A DNA stretch of 32,782 bases from the NCBI GenBank assembly GCA_900314795.1, contig OMWP01000025.1, positions 1-32,782 on the forward strand, written 5' to 3'. The position numbers and the translations under genes were made by a program. The stretch is from an uncultured Eubacteriales bacterium. Its GTDB lineage: Bacteria > Bacillota > Clostridia > Oscillospirales > Acutalibacteraceae. The notes under the pieces are model-generated. The model did not search any database and was not told the DNA's origin. It saw nothing but the letters and a program-made list of their open reading frames with translations. Below are positions 26,679 to 32,782 of this stretch, one piece after another (position 1 is the first letter of the stretch; each line of letters begins with the position of its first letter).

Positions 26679-26708
26679 CATGCGGGGCGAATCTATTCGT
26701 CCCGCATG
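26679..26708 (+). terminator. Hairpin downstream of clpE-like, possible terminator
   Basis: A long stem, CATGCGGG with CCCGCATG outside and CGAAT with ATTCG inside, joined by one G-T pair. There is no clear T run after it, so it may be a processing or weak termination signal. Confidence 0.4.
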
Positions 26709-26715
26709 AATGATG

Positions 26716-26743
26716 TTGACATAATTGAAAAATGTGGTATACT
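26716..26743 (+). promoter_or_regulatory. Promoter of the tRNA-Gln gene
   Basis: Perfect -35 TTGACA (26716-26721), 16-bp spacer, -10 TATACT (26738-26743). It is 11 bp upstream of the mature tRNA end, as is usual for tRNA genes. Confidence 0.75.
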
Positions 26744-26754
26744 ATTACTGTTGT

Positions 26755-26829
26755 TGGGAAGTAGCCAAGTGGTAAGGCAACGGACTTTGACTCCGTCATT
26801 CGTGGGTTCGAACCCCGCCTTCCCAGCCA
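26755..26829 (+). tRNA. tRNA-Gln (UUG)
   Basis: A complete cloverleaf. The acceptor stem is TGGGAAG/CTTCCCA (26755-26761 with 26819-26825). The D arm contains AGCCAAGTGGTAAGGC. The anticodon stem ACGGA/TCCGT encloses loop CTTTGAC with anticodon TTG at 26787-26789. The T arm is GTGGGTTCGAACCCC. The discriminator is G and the 3' CCA is encoded (26827-26829). The gene marks the border between the housekeeping run and the accessory island. Confidence 0.95.
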
Positions 26830-26853
26830 TACTAAGTGAATAAAAAGATATTC

Positions 26854-26890
26854 ACGCCAAAAAGCCCGATTCTATCGGGCTTTTTGGCGT
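26854..26890 (+). terminator. Strong terminator after tRNA-Gln
   Basis: A perfect 17-bp stem (26854-26870 with 26874-26890) and a three-base loop TCT. The inner part AAAAAGCCCGAT pairs with ATCGGGCTTTTT, so a U-rich stretch lies in the 3' arm. Confidence 0.85.
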
Positions 26891-27218
26891 CTAAAGAACT
26901 CGTTTTCAGTTGCATGAAACATAGATATTTTTCGGGTATTTTCCCTGTCTGTCGGGTTTTGATCCCTCGAATAGCTAGTTTTTCTACTTTATACTCTTTA
27001 AAATAAACCTGTTTTTCGTACCAAGATTATCACAAATTGTAACATATATGTAGTATTACATTATTTTTCGGTTAACAGCTACTCGGCAGTGCTGATGTAA
27101 AGAACTGCACCGTACTATCTTCTAAGAAATGAAGGAAATTAGCCCCAAAAGGGTAAAGTTATCGCCCGAAAGGGCATATGATCCTCCATAGCTCAGTCGG
27201 TAGTGATGGCGTCTAGAT
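26891..27218. other. AT-rich intergenic stretch with a tRNA-like 5' fragment
   Basis: No gene is visible in this 328-bp stretch. The left part is AT-rich and featureless. A small hairpin GCCC-GAAA-GGGC lies near 27163-27174. At about 27181-27204 the sequence CCTCCATAGCTCAGTCGGTAG looks like the acceptor and D arm of a tRNA, but no anticodon or T arm follows. This may be a remnant of an integration event near the tRNA-Gln gene. Confidence 0.45.
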
Positions 27219-27233
27219 TTGCACCGTACTATC
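27106..27233 (+). repeat. 14-bp direct repeat pair, 114 bp apart
   Basis: TGCACCGTACTATC occurs exactly at 27106-27119 and again at 27220-27233. The second copy is at the 5' edge of the VirB4 remnant frame. The 114-bp unit contains the tRNA-like fragment. It could be a duplication or an insertion with a long target repeat. Confidence 0.6.
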
Positions 27234-27656
27234 CTATCCTTTATGAGCAACCAGCTTCTCGGCGAAGGTCACACGGCTGCATCTATTGATGAGCTGTACT
27301 TGTTCCTTACTAACATGACCGCAATCGAATATATCCGCAACGCCATGAAGCGTGTGCGAAAGAAAGAATCCTCGATCATTCTGGCGTCCCAGAACATCGA
27401 GGACTTTTTGATTCCCTCTATTCGAGAGTTTACAAAGCCGTTGTTCTCCATCCCCACGCACCAGTTCCTGTTTAATGCCGGACAGATCAATCCCAAGGAA
27501 TATATGGATGCTTTGATGGTGGAGCCGTCTGAGTACGAACTGATTAAGTATCCTGAGCGAGGAACATGTCTGTATCGTTGCGGTAATGAAAGATATCTTC
27601 TTCAGGTCATCGCGCCTGATTACAAAGCGGCGATGTTCGGTAATACTAATCCTTAA
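27219..27656 (+). pseudogene. C-terminal remnant of a VirB4/TraE-type conjugation ATPase
   Basis: An open frame of about 140 residues matching only the C-terminal end of a conjugative type IV secretion ATPase. The Walker B-like piece is SIDELYLFL, followed by EYIRNAMKRVRKK, LASQNIEDFLIP and KPLFSIPTHQFLFN, as in VirB4 proteins of Firmicute integrative elements. Walker A and the whole N-terminal part (several hundred residues) are missing. The frame opens with a poor TTG at 27219, and the first ATG is at 27243. The last four residues NTNP and the stop come from a MITE-like insertion. Without it the frame would end GKAGGR at 27933. The gene is a relic of a lost conjugative element. Confidence 0.8.
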
Positions 27657-27917
27657 TAAAATGTTTTAATCAGATATTAGTAATATATTTCGGATAGCGC
27701 GACGGGAGACGCAGACAGGCTTGAGGTGTTGTCCAAATCTTTGATTTGGCTAACAACACCCATGCAACAACACTCCAAGAGCGAAGCGATTGGCTTAGTG
27801 TCACTGCTGGCGCCCCAACCGGATAAGCCTACCGAGTACAGCGAACGACGACGACAACAAAGCTATACGAAATATAGCGCAATAGATGATAAAGTTTTTT
27901 ATTAAGGATTAGTATAA
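27641..27917. mobile_element. 271-bp MITE-like element with 18-bp terminal inverted repeats and TAA target duplication
   Basis: The ends TACTAATCCTTAATAAAA (27644-27661) and their perfect reverse complement (27897-27914) form 18-bp terminal inverted repeats. The element is flanked by TAA on both sides (27641-27643 and 27915-27917), a target duplication. Cutting out the element and one TAA restores the VirB4 frame to GKAGGR and a stop, which supports a true insertion. There is no transposase gene inside. Internal structures are a long hairpin at 27725-27760 (GGTGTTGT with ACAACACC outside, CCAAATC with GATTTGG inside), GGCTTA/TAAGCC, and GCTATA/TATAGC at 27862-27878. It could be moved by a transposase elsewhere in the genome, and its RNA could be highly structured. 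Confidence 0.75.
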
Positions 27918-27936
27918 GGCAGGCGGTAGATAAATA

Positions 27937-27966
27937 ATCCACCCTTCTGAGATAAGAAGGGTGGAT
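27937..27966 (-). terminator. Terminator of the ubiquitin-dockerin gene
   Basis: Perfect 12-bp stem ATCCACCCTTCT (27937-27948) with AGAAGGGTGGAT (27955-27966) and a six-base loop. On the minus strand the 3' flank is TTATTTAT, a weak U-tract. Confidence 0.65.
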
Positions 27967-27971
27967 AAAAA

Positions 27972-30038
27972 TCATATTTCTTCCCCGATAGAATAGGGGA
28001 TCTTCATGCCTGAGAGCCAACGCTGAATCCATGTTGCGTCAATAATTGAGATTTCACCATCTGCGTCCGCATCGGCGGCAGTTTCGCTGAAGGTTTCCGG
28101 TACTTTCATATCTAATAAAAGCCGCTGAATCCAAGATACATCGAGAATGGTAACTTTTCCGTCACCGTCAGCGTCGCCGAGAATGGCGGGAGGGACAGCC
28201 TGAGTGGACAGCGAAACAGCCAGCGACATCCGCCCGAAGGCTTCCTCCACCGTTGCGCCGTTCGCGGTCACGACGGTATCTTCATCCATCCAGTAGCCGA
28301 AATCGGGATTGAGCAGGCAATCAACATAGTAGGTTCTGCCTTTCTCAAAAGTCCCTTCAAAGTCAGTGTATTCATCGTTGCTTTTGGTGTACCATTTAGT
28401 ATACTGGAATTCGGGATCGGTATAGAACGAATAATGCGCGCCCTTTTCAACAGTCAATACGGGAGCGGGCGACTGAATACCGTCTGTTATGGTAACGGTT
28501 GTTCCAATAATGGGCTGAGCGAGCGTCAGGGTGAGCTCCTTGATCTTGGTGTAGAAGCAGGCGTACACGGTCATATCGGATGTAACGATCGTATCGAGCA
28601 GAGCGCCTGCGTCTTCAATTAATTCATCTGCGTCGGCAAATTCATCCAGCGGCTTTGTCGCAAGTTCGCGGAAGATATAGTCCTCGGTCTCCATTGCGCC
28701 GAGTGTCTCAAATACTCCTGCGTTATCAAGCGCGTCAAAGAACCTTGCGCCGCGCAGTACATCTACGGAAAGATCCTCTCCGTACTCGCCGCAGTCAATG
28801 GCGACGGTACAGTAGGGCGATGCGAGCCTCACCTCAGTTGCGCCGGAGCCGTCTTCATTGACGATGGCAGGCCTGCCGTACCATGTTCCGACAGAGCCGC
28901 CCTTCGGAGCAACGATCTCCATGTCGTCAGAGAGGGTGATCGCTCCTGCATAGGAAGCTACGGCGATGTTGTCGCAAGTTACATCAACCGATGTTTTCGT
29001 TCCGCTGATGCGGATACCTTCATCACCCATAGCGTACAAGCCTATGTCTTTACCGTTGCTGAGGGTGATCCTGCCGCCGGCGACAGAGATAGCTTCAGCG
29101 ACGATTCCCTGTTTATAGTTATTCACAGCCATCATACCGCCGGACATGGTAAAGCGATCTGCATAGACGCCGCTGCCGTACATCGTCATATCGTCTTGCA
29201 AATAGTCGGCGTCAATGGTGATCTCTCCGCCGTTTACGGTCATTTCCGCACATTCGAAAGCAAATGTGTTGATCGTTTCGCCAAATCTGCTCCCTTGTAT
29301 TTTTGCGTCGTAACGACCGCTGTTTATCGTGATCGCTTTATTATAGGAGAATACAGGCTCGTTAAAGCCGTCTAGGGTCAGGCTTCCGTCAGATTCGGAA
29401 GAGAAGACCATGTTTCCGAATGAGCTGATGGCTGTGCTTTGGCGCATTTGTTCTCCGTTTTGCTCATAATCTGCATTCAAATAGTTTTCTCCCGACAAAA
29501 GGATGTTGAGGTTGTCGAGGCGCGAGTGTATCAAAGCACCGTAATATTCACCGTTAATGCCTTGGACGTTATCGAGCATCAGTGTGGCGGTTTCGGGATC
29601 ATAGACAGCAGATCCCTTTATCACGGAGGGAATCTCATTGCAGTTCTCGGAGGTGACCTGTATGCCGCCTACCCAAAGGTTGTAACTGATAACATTGTCT
29701 TCGCCTCTGAGGCGCAGTACCAGGTGCAGGGTAGATTCCTTCTGAATGTTATAATCCGCGAGGGTGCGTCCGTCCTCGAGCTGCTTACCGGCAAAGATCA
29801 GCCTCTGCTGATCCGGTGTGATCCCCTCTTTTTCCTGTATCTTACTCTTGATATTCTCGATTGTGTCATTGGATTCGACATCAAGCGTGACTGTCTTTCC
29901 GGTCAGGGTGCGGACAAATATCTGCATTCCTGTCGGAGCAAGCGCAACATTTGCCGCAGTCGCGCTCACAGAAAGAGCGCCGAACAGCACGCATACGGAA
30001 AGAAGCACAGCAAATACTCTCTTGGTGATCTTCTTCAT
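27972..30038 (-). CDS. Secreted ubiquitin-domain protein with C-terminal dockerin
   Basis: A 688-residue protein. A signal peptide (1-29) ends SATAA. A full ubiquitin domain covers residues 38-113, starting [12 protein letters not shown] and ending HLVLRLRGE. By eye 65 of 76 residues equal human ubiquitin; the changes are K6R, I13V, E16D, P19S, S20N, V26I, A28S, D32E, P37T, S57A and G76E. Next comes a long beta-helix-like region (about 115-400; [23 protein letters not shown]). A beta-sandwich-like part follows (about 510-615). The end is a type I dockerin with two calcium loops, [12 protein letters not shown] and [12 protein letters not shown] (about 621-680). The start at 30038 has AAGGAGG 7 bp upstream. 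A LytTR regulator is divergent. The domains are clear; a role as host-directed ubiquitin mimic displayed through a cohesin is inference. Confidence 0.92.
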
Positions 30039-30088
30039 AATCAATCCTCCTTGTGTTCTGTTCAGGTCAGTATCTTCATTACGATATC

Positions 30089-30118
30089 ATTGTACTATAT
30101 CACGATTTCCGTCGTCAA
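30089..30118 (-). promoter_or_regulatory. Promoter of the ubiquitin-dockerin gene
   Basis: On the minus strand, -35 TTGACG (complement of 30113-30118), an 18-bp spacer and -10 TACAAT (complement of 30089-30094). The putative LytTR operator starts 9 bp upstream of the -35 box. Confidence 0.55.
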
Positions 30119-30126
30119 TAGATTTT

Positions 30127-30160
30127 CGAAAAAGACTTGTATTTTTGCGAAAAGAACTTG
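30127..30160. promoter_or_regulatory. Putative LytTR operator (two direct repeats, 21-bp period)
   Basis: CGAAAAAGACTTG (30127-30139) and CGAAAAGAACTTG (30148-30160) are near-identical 13-bp direct repeats with starts 21 bp apart, two DNA turns. On the minus strand they read CAAGTCTTTTTCG and CAAGTTCTTTTCG, close to the LytTR/AgrA half-site pattern. The pair lies upstream of the ubiquitin-gene -35 and overlaps the -35 of the regulator gene. Confidence 0.6.
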
Positions 30161-30186
30161 CCCCGCTACAGGCTTTTTGATATAAT
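30158..30186 (+). promoter_or_regulatory. Promoter of the LytTR regulator gene
   Basis: -35 TTGCCC (30158-30163), a 17-bp spacer and extended -10 TGATATAAT with the hexamer at 30181-30186. The -35 box overlaps the second operator repeat, which suggests autoregulation. Confidence 0.65.
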
Positions 30187-30215
30187 GACAGCAATAACAA
30201 ATCGGGAGCAAGAAG

Positions 30216-31040
30216 ATGAACCAACAACAGATTGCCGATCTCTCGGCTGAACTGATTATGAAATACTATGATAACGACTATATGCCGTTCCTGATGCACA
30301 TGGACGATGACGCGCTATGGTACGGTCCCGCCGAGGGACAATTCCTGCACGGTAGGGAAAAGATGATCGAGGTATGGAACGCCGAGGACCACTCTCTGTC
30401 CTTTTCCTTGGGAAATATCGAGGTCATGCACACAAGCGCTCATCCTTCGTCCTGCGATGTGATGTTGAGTTATCACGTTACTACGCACTATCCCGATCAC
30501 CATGACATCACCCTGTATCAGCGCCTGCTCCTGACTTGGTGCGAGCGTATGATTGAGGATGAGAACGGCAGCAAAGAGAAACAGCCAAGGATACTGCTCT
30601 GTCATATCTCCAACCCTCATTCCATGCATGAGGAGGATACGATATATCCGAAAAACTTTCATCAGATCTATTACAGCAGCGCTTCTCTCAGACAAAACGG
30701 TGATCGCATCCACTTCCACGGACTTGACCGTTCGGATTACTTTATCCTTTCCGATACCGTTGTATATATCGAAGCGGCTCACGAGAGCAGACACAGTATC
30801 CTGCATACTGTCGATGGAGAATCGGTCGAGGTGTTTACAAGTGTATCTGCGCTTGAAAAAAGATATCATCATCTGTTCCTCAGGTGTCATCAGAGCTATC
30901 TGGTCAATCCCGGTTATATCCGAAACATTCGGCGGTTTAAGCTGACGCTGTCTGATGGCACTCAGCTGCCGATCCCTGAGAAGAAATATACAGCTTTTCG
31001 CGATATGGCGATTCAGCAGTTTTCAAGCAAATCCTTGTAG
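30216..31040 (+). CDS. LytTR-family transcription regulator with NTF2/SnoaL-like N-terminus
   Basis: A 274-residue protein. The N-terminal half (about 1-120) looks like an NTF2/SnoaL-type ligand-binding fold (ALWYGPAEGQFLHGREKMIE). The C-terminal part (about 170-270) is a LytTR DNA-binding domain: DTVVYIEAAHESRHSILHT, then FTSVSALEKRYHHLFLRCHQ, SYLVNPGYIRNIRRF and a final TQLPIPEKKY. There is no response-regulator receiver domain, so it probably senses a small molecule directly instead of phosphorylation. GGGAG is the ribosome binding site. It is divergent from the ubiquitin-dockerin gene and shares the putative operator, so it is the likely regulator of that gene. Confidence 0.85.
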   Translation: MNQQQIADLSAELIMKYYDNDYMPFLMHMDDDALWYGPAEGQFLHGREKMIEVWNAEDHSLSFSLGNIEVMHTSAHPSSCDVMLSYHVTTHYPDHHDITLYQRLLLTWCERMIEDENGSKEKQPRILLCHISNPHSMHEEDTIYPKNFHQIYYSSASLRQNGDRIHFHGLDRSDYFILSDTVVYIEAAHESRHSILHTVDGESVEVFTSVSALEKRYHHLFLRCHQSYLVNPGYIRNIRRFKLTLSDGTQLPIPEKKYTAFRDMAIQQFSSKSL

Positions 31041-31102
31041 ACAATATCTGTATGATCTGTTATCATAATGAATAATCAGACTTGAAACTGAGGGTGAAAG
31101 AT

Positions 31103-31285
31103 ATGGAGTACGGGTATTCGATCCTGATGGGGATTTTTGCCGGTCTTATTCTGATTTATGTCGGGTTGATGGCGCTGACTAAAGACTATAAAATGTTGCC
31201 CTTTCGTGCAACCGTGTCAGTACAGCCGAAAGACGAGAAACGGTATATGAATATGGCTTGGAACGAAGATCATGCGAGGGGTTGA
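31103..31285 (+). CDS. Small single-pass membrane protein
   Basis: A 60-residue protein starting MEYGYSILMGIFAGLILIYV with one hydrophobic segment (about 5-28), followed by a basic stretch KDYKMLPFRATVSVQPKDEK. The ATG at 31103 follows GAGGGTGAAAG; an in-frame upstream ATG at 31082 has none. I do not know a function. It might be a C-terminally truncated copy of a longer family, but this cannot be shown here. It is the first of four closely spaced plus-strand genes. Confidence 0.5.
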   Translation: MEYGYSILMGIFAGLILIYVGLMALTKDYKMLPFRATVSVQPKDEKRYMNMAWNEDHARG

Positions 31286-31290
31286 GTGAT

Positions 31291-31458
31291 ATGAAAAATG
31301 TACCGTTCAAAAAGCAAAGCAAAAAAGAACAGCGTAGATTCCACGCTCGGCTGAGAAGAGATTAGAACGGCTTGAAGCCGACCACCAGAGTGGTAAAGAG
31401 CAAAATGGTTTACGATAGAAGGAAACTGCAGAAACCAAGTGCGAATGATGGTGAATGA
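31291..31458 (+). pseudogene. Small basic ORF interrupted by an in-frame TAG
   Basis: Starting at ATG 31291 the frame reads MKNVPFKKQSKKEQRRFHAR and four more residues, then a TAG at 31363-31365. Read through the TAG, the same frame continues for 30 residues with similar basic character (NGLKPTTRVVKSKMVYDRRK) to a TGA at 31456-31458, two bases from the next start. The most likely reading is a former 55-residue protein in which a Trp codon (TGG) became TAG. A true 24-residue peptide is the alternative. Confidence 0.5.
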
Positions 31459-31459
31459 G

Positions 31460-31906
31460 ATGGACGATATCAAAACTTTGAGAGCAAATGAAACATGGCA
31501 GAGAGCCGGAGCTTACTCCGTCAGGATTCAGGGGATGAACCGCCAGCACCATATCTCTTTGCAAGAGGAATTCGATGAGCATGACGGCGATAAGAGCAAA
31601 TACATCGTTCTGATAGACGACACCTATCCTGTTGCAACTTGCCGTTTCTATGAGCTGGATGAAAATACGGTTCTGGTCGGACGAGTCGTAGTTCTTCCCG
31701 AATATCGAGGAAAGCATCTCGGCTGCAGAGTGATCGCAGAAGCTGAAAAGTGGATTGCAGAACTCGGCTATACAGAAATAGTAATCGACGCCAGATTGGA
31801 AGCGACAGGCTTTTATGAAAGGCTCGGATACAAGCAAAGAGACGGTGAAGTTTTCAAAAGTTGGAAATTTGATTGTACAAGAATGGTTAAAAGGATAAAC
31901 GTATGA
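31460..31906 (+). CDS. GNAT-family N-acetyltransferase
   Basis: A 148-residue protein of the GNAT fold. The acetyl-CoA-binding region is VGRVVVLPEYRGKHLGCRVI, with the Arg/Gly pattern R-G-K-x-L-G. GFYERLGYKQRDGE is the typical end. The ATG at 31460 follows GGTGA; upstream in-frame ATGs at 31439-31445 overlap the broken small ORF and have weaker sites. The substrate (amine, antibiotic, peptide or other) cannot be read. The stop overlaps the start of the next acetyltransferase by 4 bp, so the two form a translationally coupled pair. Confidence 0.85.
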   Translation: MDDIKTLRANETWQRAGAYSVRIQGMNRQHHISLQEEFDEHDGDKSKYIVLIDDTYPVATCRFYELDENTVLVGRVVVLPEYRGKHLGCRVIAEAEKWIAELGYTEIVIDARLEATGFYERLGYKQRDGEVFKSWKFDCTRMVKRINV

Positions 31907-32460
31907 TGAAAACCGAACGAGAAAAAATGACAAATGCCGAACCCTTTTTGACGAACGATCCTCAACTCATGGAGGACAAGAAAAACGCGCGGATCCTTTG
32001 TTCCCGTTTTAATGATTCGCCCGAGGATGAATCTGTCAGAAAGTCAATACTGAAAGAATTGCTGGGAAGCTGCACAGAAAACATCGCCGTAAAACCTCCG
32101 TTTCACTGCGACTACGGATATAACATCTTTGTGGGCGATGATTTTTTCATGAACTTTGACTGTGTATTTCTGGACGCCGCTCCGATCAGAATAGGCACAA
32201 ATTGTATGATAGGACCAAAAACGTGTATTTACGCAATCGGTCATCCTCTTGACGCGGAAGGACGAAGAAAAAAGATCGGTATTCCTAAGCCCGTCAATAT
32301 TGGTGATAACGTCTGGATCGGAGGAGGGGTAACGATACTCCCCGGTGTCACGATCGGCGATAACACTGTTGTTGCCGCGGCTTCTGTTGTGACAAAATCG
32401 TTTCCCGAAAATGTAGTAGTTGCCGGGAATCCGGCACGAATCATTAAGCACCTGAAATAA
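31903..32460 (+). CDS. Sugar O-acetyltransferase of the maltose/galactoside (hexapeptide) family
   Basis: A 185-residue left-handed beta-helix acyltransferase. The N-terminal part (about 10-70) matches the Mac domain of maltose acetyltransferases. The hexapeptide repeats include GDNVWIGGGVTILPGVTIGD and NTVVAAASVVTKSFP. The catalytic His is in YAIGHPLDAEGR. Such enzymes acetylate sugars with acetyl-CoA in the cytoplasm. AAGGA serves as ribosome binding site. It overlaps the GNAT gene. The N-terminal 10 residues are Lys/Glu-rich and could belong to a shorter product from an internal ATG. Confidence 0.9.
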   Translation: MMKTEREKMTNAEPFLTNDPQLMEDKKNARILCSRFNDSPEDESVRKSILKELLGSCTENIAVKPPFHCDYGYNIFVGDDFFMNFDCVFLDAAPIRIGTNCMIGPKTCIYAIGHPLDAEGRRKKIGIPKPVNIGDNVWIGGGVTILPGVTIGDNTVVAAASVVTKSFPENVVVAGNPARIIKHLK

Positions 32461-32517
32461 AACAATGGGCAAGTCAGCGCAATTAAATTAAATAGTCAGT
32501 CGATAAGGAGAGTAATT

Positions 32518-32562
32518 ATGAGTAGAAAACTTATATTTATGGATTTGTTACTATATAAATGA
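32518..32562 (+). pseudogene. First codons of a HAD-type hydrolase, cut off
   Basis: After a good AAGGAGA the frame reads MSRKLIFMDL and then LLLYK and a stop. The first ten residues are those of a typical Cof-type HAD hydrolase (R-K-L-I-F-x-D-x-D-G-T), but the sequence leaves the family right before the second Asp. The break is near 32548. An insertion or deletion has removed the rest. Confidence 0.55.
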
Positions 32563-32782
32563 AAAGGCAAGTGCTATCGGTAGTGAATCGATTTTGTTCG
32601 TGGGTTCAAAACTCCGGCAGATTTGGTGTTCGAGGGTTCAAAACTGTACGGATTTTGAGCGAAAAAAATCTTTTTTGTACATCAATCATAACCACCCGTA
32701 AAACGGGTGGTTTGCTCTGGGGCTATAAGCCCCTGTTACTGACCCGCGTCTCAAGGCGCGGGCTTTAACTTTGTTCAAGCCT
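32563..32782. mobile_element. Hairpin-rich tail, possibly the end of an insertion element
   Basis: No gene is visible. The left part (32590-32660) has two imperfect direct repeats (GTTCGTGGGTTCAAAACT and GTTCGAGGGTTCAAAACT) that look like tRNA T-arms. Then come three strong hairpins in a row: AACCACCCGT/ACGGGTGGTT (32690-32712), GGGGCT/AGCCCC (32719-32733) and CCCGCG/CGCGGG (32743-32762), followed by CTTTAACTTTG. Such hairpin clusters occur at ends of IS200/IS605-like elements and their guide RNAs. The assignment is tentative because the region is cut by the window edge. Confidence 0.35.

Follow-up and report, generated by a model that had tools for sequence, protein, structure and literature searches.

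A dockerin-bearing surface-type protein of an uncultured gut- or rumen-type Firmicute carries a near-eukaryotic ubiquitin, one of many secreted-like bacterial ubiquitins

Ubiquitin is taught as a hallmark of eukaryotes. The closest known bacterial counterpart is BfUbb of Bacteroides fragilis, which reportedly targets a periplasmic prolyl isomerase. It is a characterised secreted ubiquitin that acts on bacteria (PMC5705921). A secreted bacterial ubiquitin is already known in BfUbb; among the papers listed by our searches of the open-licence literature, none dealt with a tethered, surface-anchored bacterial ubiquitin as the first module of diverse surface proteins, and none linked ubiquitin with a dockerin in Ruminococcus in the manner seen here.

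The window, that is the whole stretch of DNA analysed here, comprises 32,782 nucleotides of an uncultured Eubacteriales bacterium (assembly GCA_900314795.1, contig OMWP01000025.1). The gene under study lies on its minus strand, from an ATG at 30038 to a stop at 27972-27974, and encodes 688 amino acids, or 690 with an upstream TTG (Table 1). The preliminary description of this DNA gave no strand and had recognised a signal peptide, a 76-residue ubiquitin with about 65 residues identical to human ubiquitin, a beta-helix-like middle and a two-loop type I dockerin in a single open frame behind a good ribosome binding site. Our analysis of the sequence agrees and confirms the frame. The predicted exported protein begins with a signal peptide and a ubiquitin of eukaryotic type, continues with a likely beta-solenoid and module X, and ends in a type I dockerin. 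The signal peptide was called by a hydrophobicity rule and inspection by eye, with an inferred cleavage site, and supports export. The dockerin has two duplicated calcium-type loops and a Dockerin_1 match in Pfam (E 1.1e-9; 38.7 bits against a cut-off of 22.9). In the predicted structure, whose model was built from four sequences, long strands run through residues 118-370 with block pLDDT of 51-93, except 41 at residues 191-200; the label beta-helix is likely. Residues 396-688, the stretch of module X and dockerin, have pLDDT below 50, and since ubiquitins took up the fold-comparison lists, these lists say little about the solenoid and the remaining parts.

Table 1. Features of the ubiquitin gene and its surroundings in the window (positions of the forward strand)
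Feature	Position	Strand	Basis or remark
tRNA-Gln	26755..26829	+	near ubiquitin gene also in L104, L196, L199
VirB4-like conjugation ATPase remnant, C-terminal end	27219..27656	+	NCBIfam NF045975 E 5.7e-11
Terminator-like hairpin 3' of gene, 10-base arms	27939..27964	-	by eye
Type I dockerin, residues 613-688	27975..28202	-	two calcium-type loops; IL and II at positions 10-11
Module X, residues 406-612	28203..28823	-	common to surface proteins without ubiquitin
Likely beta-solenoid, residues 114-405, confident model to about 370	28824..29699	-	model strands; no Pfam match
Ubiquitin domain, residues 38-113	29700..29927	-	PF00240; 65/76 identical to human; G76 to E
8-residue spacer NVALAPTG, signal peptide to ubiquitin	29928..29951	-	translation; cleavage site inferred by eye
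Predicted signal peptide, residues about 1-29 (MKK...ATAA)	29952..30038	-	hydrophobic core rule (sister row L076) and translation by eye
Shine-Dalgarno AAGGAGG	30046..30052	-	7 bases before ATG
Direct repeat ACTTG-N16-ACTTG, 21-base period	30135..30160	.	divergent intergenic region; candidate LytTR site
Divergent LytTR-domain regulator	30216..31040	+	Pfam LytTR 2.9e-15

The ubiquitin domain matches PF00240 above the curated cut-off (E 1.8e-29) and is nearly identical to eukaryotic ubiquitin, the changes from the human protein being K6R, I13V, E16D, P19S, S20N, V26I, A28S, D32E, P37T, S57A and G76E; the identical domain of a sister genome (G012) has 65 of 76 residues in common with human ubiquitin. 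The window protein matches 430 distinct PDB sequences at E up to 0.01, and the 60 matches listed are all ubiquitins, polyubiquitins, fusions or engineered variants; in the fold-comparison list, the window ubiquitin is about 84-88% identical to unmodified eukaryotic ubiquitins and 58% identical to the B. fragilis structure 8hm2. The claim of a eukaryote-type ubiquitin in a gut- or rumen-type Bacillota genome is thereby supported, and the alternative named with it, a generic bacterial ubiquitin-like fold (we considered the YukD, ThiS and MoaD type), is ruled out by the identity to human ubiquitin. At the C-terminus there is no free or processable Gly75-Gly76: residue 76 is glutamate and the chain continues for 575 residues. 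This loss of G76 speaks against entry into conjugation and for non-covalent binding. The E2 profile reached about 19.7-19.8 bits in the window's genome, below the cut-off of 27. An E2-like protein there (192 aa, L254:1387-1962, minus strand, contig C66, GTYC motif, UQ_con below cut-off) lies on another contig than the ubiquitin gene, has no signal peptide by eye and is possibly a bacterial E2-fold protein unlinked to the window. ThiF has two matches above cut-off in this genome, likewise in 11 of 14 control genomes.

Comparison of six genes shows strong purifying selection on the ubiquitin at the sequence level. Its omega was 0.00-0.15 in 14 of the 15 pairs, which are not independent, and in each of the 14 no other mature module among the four had so low a value; the solenoid gave 0.21-0.50, module X 0.16-0.26 and the dockerin 0.17-0.40 where defined. 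In the exceptional pair (G123-G057) the ubiquitin had one change of each kind, an omega of 0.28, and was not the most constrained module. Among 81 distinct secreted-like domains, many of them picked by similarity so that the counts are biased, L8 is kept in 79, R42 in 75, I44 in 76, K48 in 73, H68 in 74, V70 in 73 and R72 in 75, and G76 in only 13. The 24 profile-gathered sequences of the window's genus gave a similar picture (L8 23, I44 22, V70 22, H68 21, K48 21, G76 3), and lysines 27, 29, 33, 48 and 63 are kept in 21-24 of them. We take L8, I44, V70, H68 and K48 to be recognised surface residues of eukaryotic ubiquitin. When the I44 patch was compared with random surface sets, with assumed sets of buried and patch residues, its conservation in the N-terminal class was not significant (3500 of 20000 sets reached it for 23 genus sequences, 1934 of 20000 for 69 others). 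The patch was kept better than random sets in the internal class (226 of 20000, a figure that ignores kinship), and in its twelve divergent copies, two of them identical, residues 40-72 are conserved at 0.64 as compared to 0.34 for residues 1-39.

The protein is no lone curiosity beside B. fragilis, as the preliminary description might have left one to think. With the window's genome included in each count, PF00240 has 41 matches in the genus, spread over 33 of its 161 genomes; it occurs in 5 of 394 genomes sampled from the order and in 5 of 398 sampled from the phylum (4 above cut-off). The 41 genus matches comprise 25 N-terminal domains (the window's included), 12 internal and divergent ones and 4 fragments. 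A scan of 84,980 species genomes gave at least 324 relatives; we retained the best 80. These, together with the loci of the genome searches and the R. albus locus, made 131 sequences, 113 of them distinct and 82 secreted-like by a rule that asks for a hydrophobic core, no fewer than 40 residues identical to human ubiquitin and a distance to Met1 of at most 30; the 24-sequence genus set leaves out the window's own ubiquitin and four genus fragments (G109 twice, G020, G107). The 82, many of which are MAGs, include 24 from the genus, 20 labelled Bacillota, 17 Pseudomonadota, 7 Verrucomicrobiota, 2 Actinomycetota, 2 Bacteroidota and one each of Planctomycetota, Myxococcota, Cyanobacteriota and Methanobacteriota; four were placed only by kinship to the window and two are unlabelled (the R. 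albus plasmid and KSB1). The cyanobacterial sequence (L131) is close to a Methylophilaceae one (L130) in sequence and architecture and is likely misbinned. Relatives from strains, not MAGs, include Dyella sp. OK004, Dyella acidiphila, Rhodobacter amnigenus, Sphingomonas canadensis, Methylolobus aquaticus and Conexibacter sp. Left outside the 82 were, for example, L126, L127, L134, L137, L155 and L171; these are either probable contaminants of eukaryotic origin or frames that lack a signal-peptide-like segment. Two Ruminococcaceae MAGs (L143, L152), also outside, are exceptions with a near-intact ubiquitin 113-151 residues into the frame. Three MAG contigs labelled Actinomycetota (L160, L173, L185) carry ubiquitin frames that have no signal-peptide-like segment and are followed by a similar GVVTYQ stretch, two such frames per contig in L160 and L173.

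A ubiquitin tree, as the preliminary description had proposed, was built on 72 columns; no branch of it is starred, and it points to neither a particular donor nor a number of transfers. In this poorly supported tree the ubiquitins of the genus are scattered over four places or more, which is no more than a hint of several introductions. The ubiquitins of Verrucomicrobia UBA7008 (L122) and Coriobacteriaceae RUG13877 (L123), which belong to other phyla, resemble those of Ruminococcus, and this likeness hints at transfer between bacteria.

The secreted-like ubiquitins have a recurrent anatomy. An AxA-type cleavage-like site directly abuts Met1 in 62 of the 82. Their C-termini mostly have no GG (71), while 6 have GG and run on, 4 end on GG and 1 stops early; no sequence of the genus set ends on GG. 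The four that do (L133, L146, L163, L164) are perhaps still conjugatable, and in this group the ubiquitin of Dyella sp. OK004 is identical to the human one at 75 of 76 residues. What follows the ubiquitin is often the lineage's own anchor or surface module. In Ruminococcus it is a dockerin alone, or a solenoid and then a dockerin. Of ten proteins tested from Pseudomonadota and Verrucomicrobiota, 8 continue with an autotransporter barrel. Ten further proteins, among them one ubiquitin-free control (L195), had SLH (2), InlB/Flg_new-type repeats (4, two also with SLH), a T9SS-type tail (1), YDG/MBG (1), GLUG (1) or no other notable family (2). Divergent internal ubiquitin-like domains between InlB/Flg_new-looking repeats were also seen in the same genus (L085-L090, L092, L095, L096, L098 and L100).

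As for the dockerin, the search for cohesins that the preliminary description had suggested was successful: two cohesin proteins above the Pfam cut-off are encoded in the window's genome, and one of them ends, by eye, in a sortase-like SPKTGD, a membrane segment and basic residues. Docking of the window protein to the cell wall is plausible on these sequence features. The same genome has 53 dockerin matches, and among the 30 examined, seven, the window's included, carry IL/II pairs in both loops, at positions which we take to have a role in cohesin recognition. The other six proteins of this kind (partial frames) have CBM26 in three, one of them below the curated cut-off and one also with an esterase; LRR, peptidase S41 and Cthe_2159 each occur in a single protein.

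The genomic setting of the gene recurs in relatives. The window's genome (2.53 Mb, 67 contigs, 99.75% complete) has one ubiquitin match. In G012 a full-length gene, 92% identical, lies between the same LytTR gene and tRNA-Gln at this clpC-side locus; tRNA-Gln and clpC-side DNA also adjoin the ubiquitin gene in L104 (G043) and L199 (G103), and in G103 the LytTR gene beside it is seen as a remnant only. Named strains have ubiquitin frames on a plasmid or on large contigs, Ruminococcus albus 7 carrying its ubiquitin protein on plasmid pRUMAL01. The VirB4-like remnant of the window covers positions 760-893 of the 894 of NF045975 and scores far under the whole-protein cut-off. Against plasmid records, the locus at 26700-32782 gave only tRNA-sized or contig-end matches (20 of 23 records listed). 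The contig end itself (32684-32781), with no annotated feature, matched 8 of the 20 listed records at about 81-89% and is probably the start of an rRNA gene. Ubiquitin was found in two plasmid records, of R. albus 7 at 80% and of Pseudoalteromonas at 46% (E 1e-3), and in no phage record at E 1e-3.

The neighbouring LytTR regulator occurs in 29 of 161 genus genomes (31 matches) and co-occurs with ubiquitin (33 genomes) in 17, which gives a Fisher p of 4e-7 in a statistic that ignores kinship. A ubiquitin protein lies beside it at 8 of the 31 loci, and at 9 the place is taken by a module X and dockerin protein with no detectable ubiquitin. G026 has a dockerin protein without module X there, and the protein of G167 bears a ubiquitin-like domain of divergent sequence. 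At the other 12 we saw none of these proteins in the corresponding position; among them, G171 and G006 do have a dockerin protein close by, differently arranged, G146 and G013 are near a contig end, and G168:C6, G169 and G109 were viewed without wide flanks. The ACTTG pair of 21-base period is present in all ten intergenic regions picked for alignment, eight with ubiquitin and two from the nine module X and dockerin loci, and shuffles of the window's intergenic region gave a pair at 20-22 spacing in 12 of 20000. Synonymous distances between the window gene and that of G103 differ along the gene (signal peptide 0.58, ubiquitin 0.28, solenoid 0.07, module X 0.07, dockerin 0.35), a pattern suggesting that modules have recombined. 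These comparisons of loci show the ubiquitin in an exchangeable N-terminal slot beside the LytTR regulator. The plasmid of R. albus 7 (L105:3383-10273) has a cluster of small secreted look-alike proteins and a PI-PLC-domain gene, followed by a dockerin protein. Several of the neighbouring secreted proteins have a similar C-terminal domain by eye, and just one of them has a ubiquitin between signal peptide and C-terminal domain.

The function we tentatively prefer is that of a displayed, non-conjugatable ubiquitin which binds proteins of eukaryotes, of grazing protists and possibly of a host, non-covalently. The protein would be exported by Sec with a eukaryote-derived ubiquitin as its first folded module, its dockerin would dock to a wall-bound cohesin, and the ubiquitin would then project from the cell and bind ubiquitin-recognising proteins as a decoy or ligand. 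That G76 is lost while the body is under strong selection speaks for a non-covalent mode of action. The likeliest partners would come from eukaryotes in contact with the bacterium, grazing protists first and perhaps the animal host as well, since the fold stays near eukaryotic ubiquitin while the conjugation tail does not. Closeness to eukaryotic ubiquitin, in lineages which we presume to share habitats with protists, likewise favours eukaryotic partners. Against this, extracellular display alone does not reach the eukaryotic cytosol, the I44 patch of the N-terminal class gave a non-significant result, the pair G123-G057 departs from the constraint pattern, and BfUbb acts on bacteria.

The main rival, which we consider unlikely, is interbacterial antagonism of the BfUbb kind, in which the displayed ubiquitin would inhibit neighbouring bacteria through an envelope protein. 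The abutting cleavage-like site of most of the 82 sequences fits it, as do LytTR regulators, which often control competition genes. BfUbb itself is secreted, cut exactly before Met1, has no terminal glycine and inhibits B. fragilis strains (PMC5705921), which shows that a ubiquitin made by bacteria can act on bacteria. But BfUbb is a free protein of 76 residues and the window ubiquitin is tethered and much closer to eukaryotic ubiquitins than to 8hm2. Bovine ubiquitin is moreover inactive on B. fragilis in that account (PMC5705921), so a near-eukaryotic sequence is not required for that activity.

It is improbable that the ubiquitin is just a fast-folding, tough cap that aids folding or resists proteases and has no partner. 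In the 82 sequences it does occupy the position next to the signal peptide, though the selection rule favours that, and the divergent copies between repeats resemble stalk modules; however, its omega is below that of the neighbouring modules, surface residues are kept, the five lysines included, and a cap would not call for 85% identity. That the protein imitates extracellular ubiquitin at receptors of the host, or a self antigen for immune modulation in the animal gut, is more doubtful still, as the same design occurs in lineages such as Methylotenera, Dyella and Sphingomonas, which we take not to be gut genera. Extracellular ubiquitin has reported immune effects, debated as acting via CXCR4, and Ub 1-74 is said to bind without activating, but ubiquitin signalling through CXCR4 is disputed (PMC10892293). 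An artefact at the 5' end of the gene, through contamination or misassembly, is suggested by the draft state of the genome and by database loci that resemble eukaryotic contaminants (L126 has four head-to-tail ubiquitins); it has next to no chance of being right and is rejected by the single open frame with its bacterial ribosome site, the synteny with relatives and the ubiquitin frames of named strains.

More broadly, it is possible, though we hold this with some doubt, that many phyla have repeatedly captured eukaryotic ubiquitin, disabled its tail and placed it as the outermost surface module, a common device to deal with neighbours that use ubiquitin, grazing protists among them, and that in Ruminococcus it is an interchangeable passenger of a LytTR-controlled display locus. 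If such tethered, non-conjugatable ubiquitins are indeed recurrent, they would point to a so far unrecognised kind of interaction of bacteria with cells that use ubiquitin, and would provide natural, displayable ubiquitin baits. The question is tractable in cultured R. albus 7, since its plasmid carries such a gene.

As compared to known systems, the window protein shares with eukaryotic ubiquitin (PF00240) the fold, most residues and six of the seven lysines (K6R), and differs in its signal peptide, G76E, the C-terminal fusion and the missing GG processing site. The internal ubiquitin-like domains of the same genus share the family match and the surface-type proteins, some with a dockerin, and are divergent, internal in position and conserved in one half. 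With the dockerin proteins of the Ruminococcus cellulosome and amylosome it has in common the type I dockerin, some of their cargo bearing CBM26 starch-binding modules. The secreted ubiquitin-extension effector of Globodera rostochiensis likewise has a signal peptide, a ubiquitin and a C-terminal extension; it belongs to an animal parasite and its extension is cleaved (PMC5705921), whereas the window protein is bacterial and tethered. BfUbb is bacterial and exported as well, with a ubiquitin fold and no terminal GG, and its cleavage site at Met1 is like that of most of the 82 sequences, whereas the window protein appears to have a spacer. BfUbb is a free antibacterial protein of a single domain, and the window ubiquitin, closer to the human form (65/76) than to BfUbb (58% to 8hm2), is fused to surface modules.
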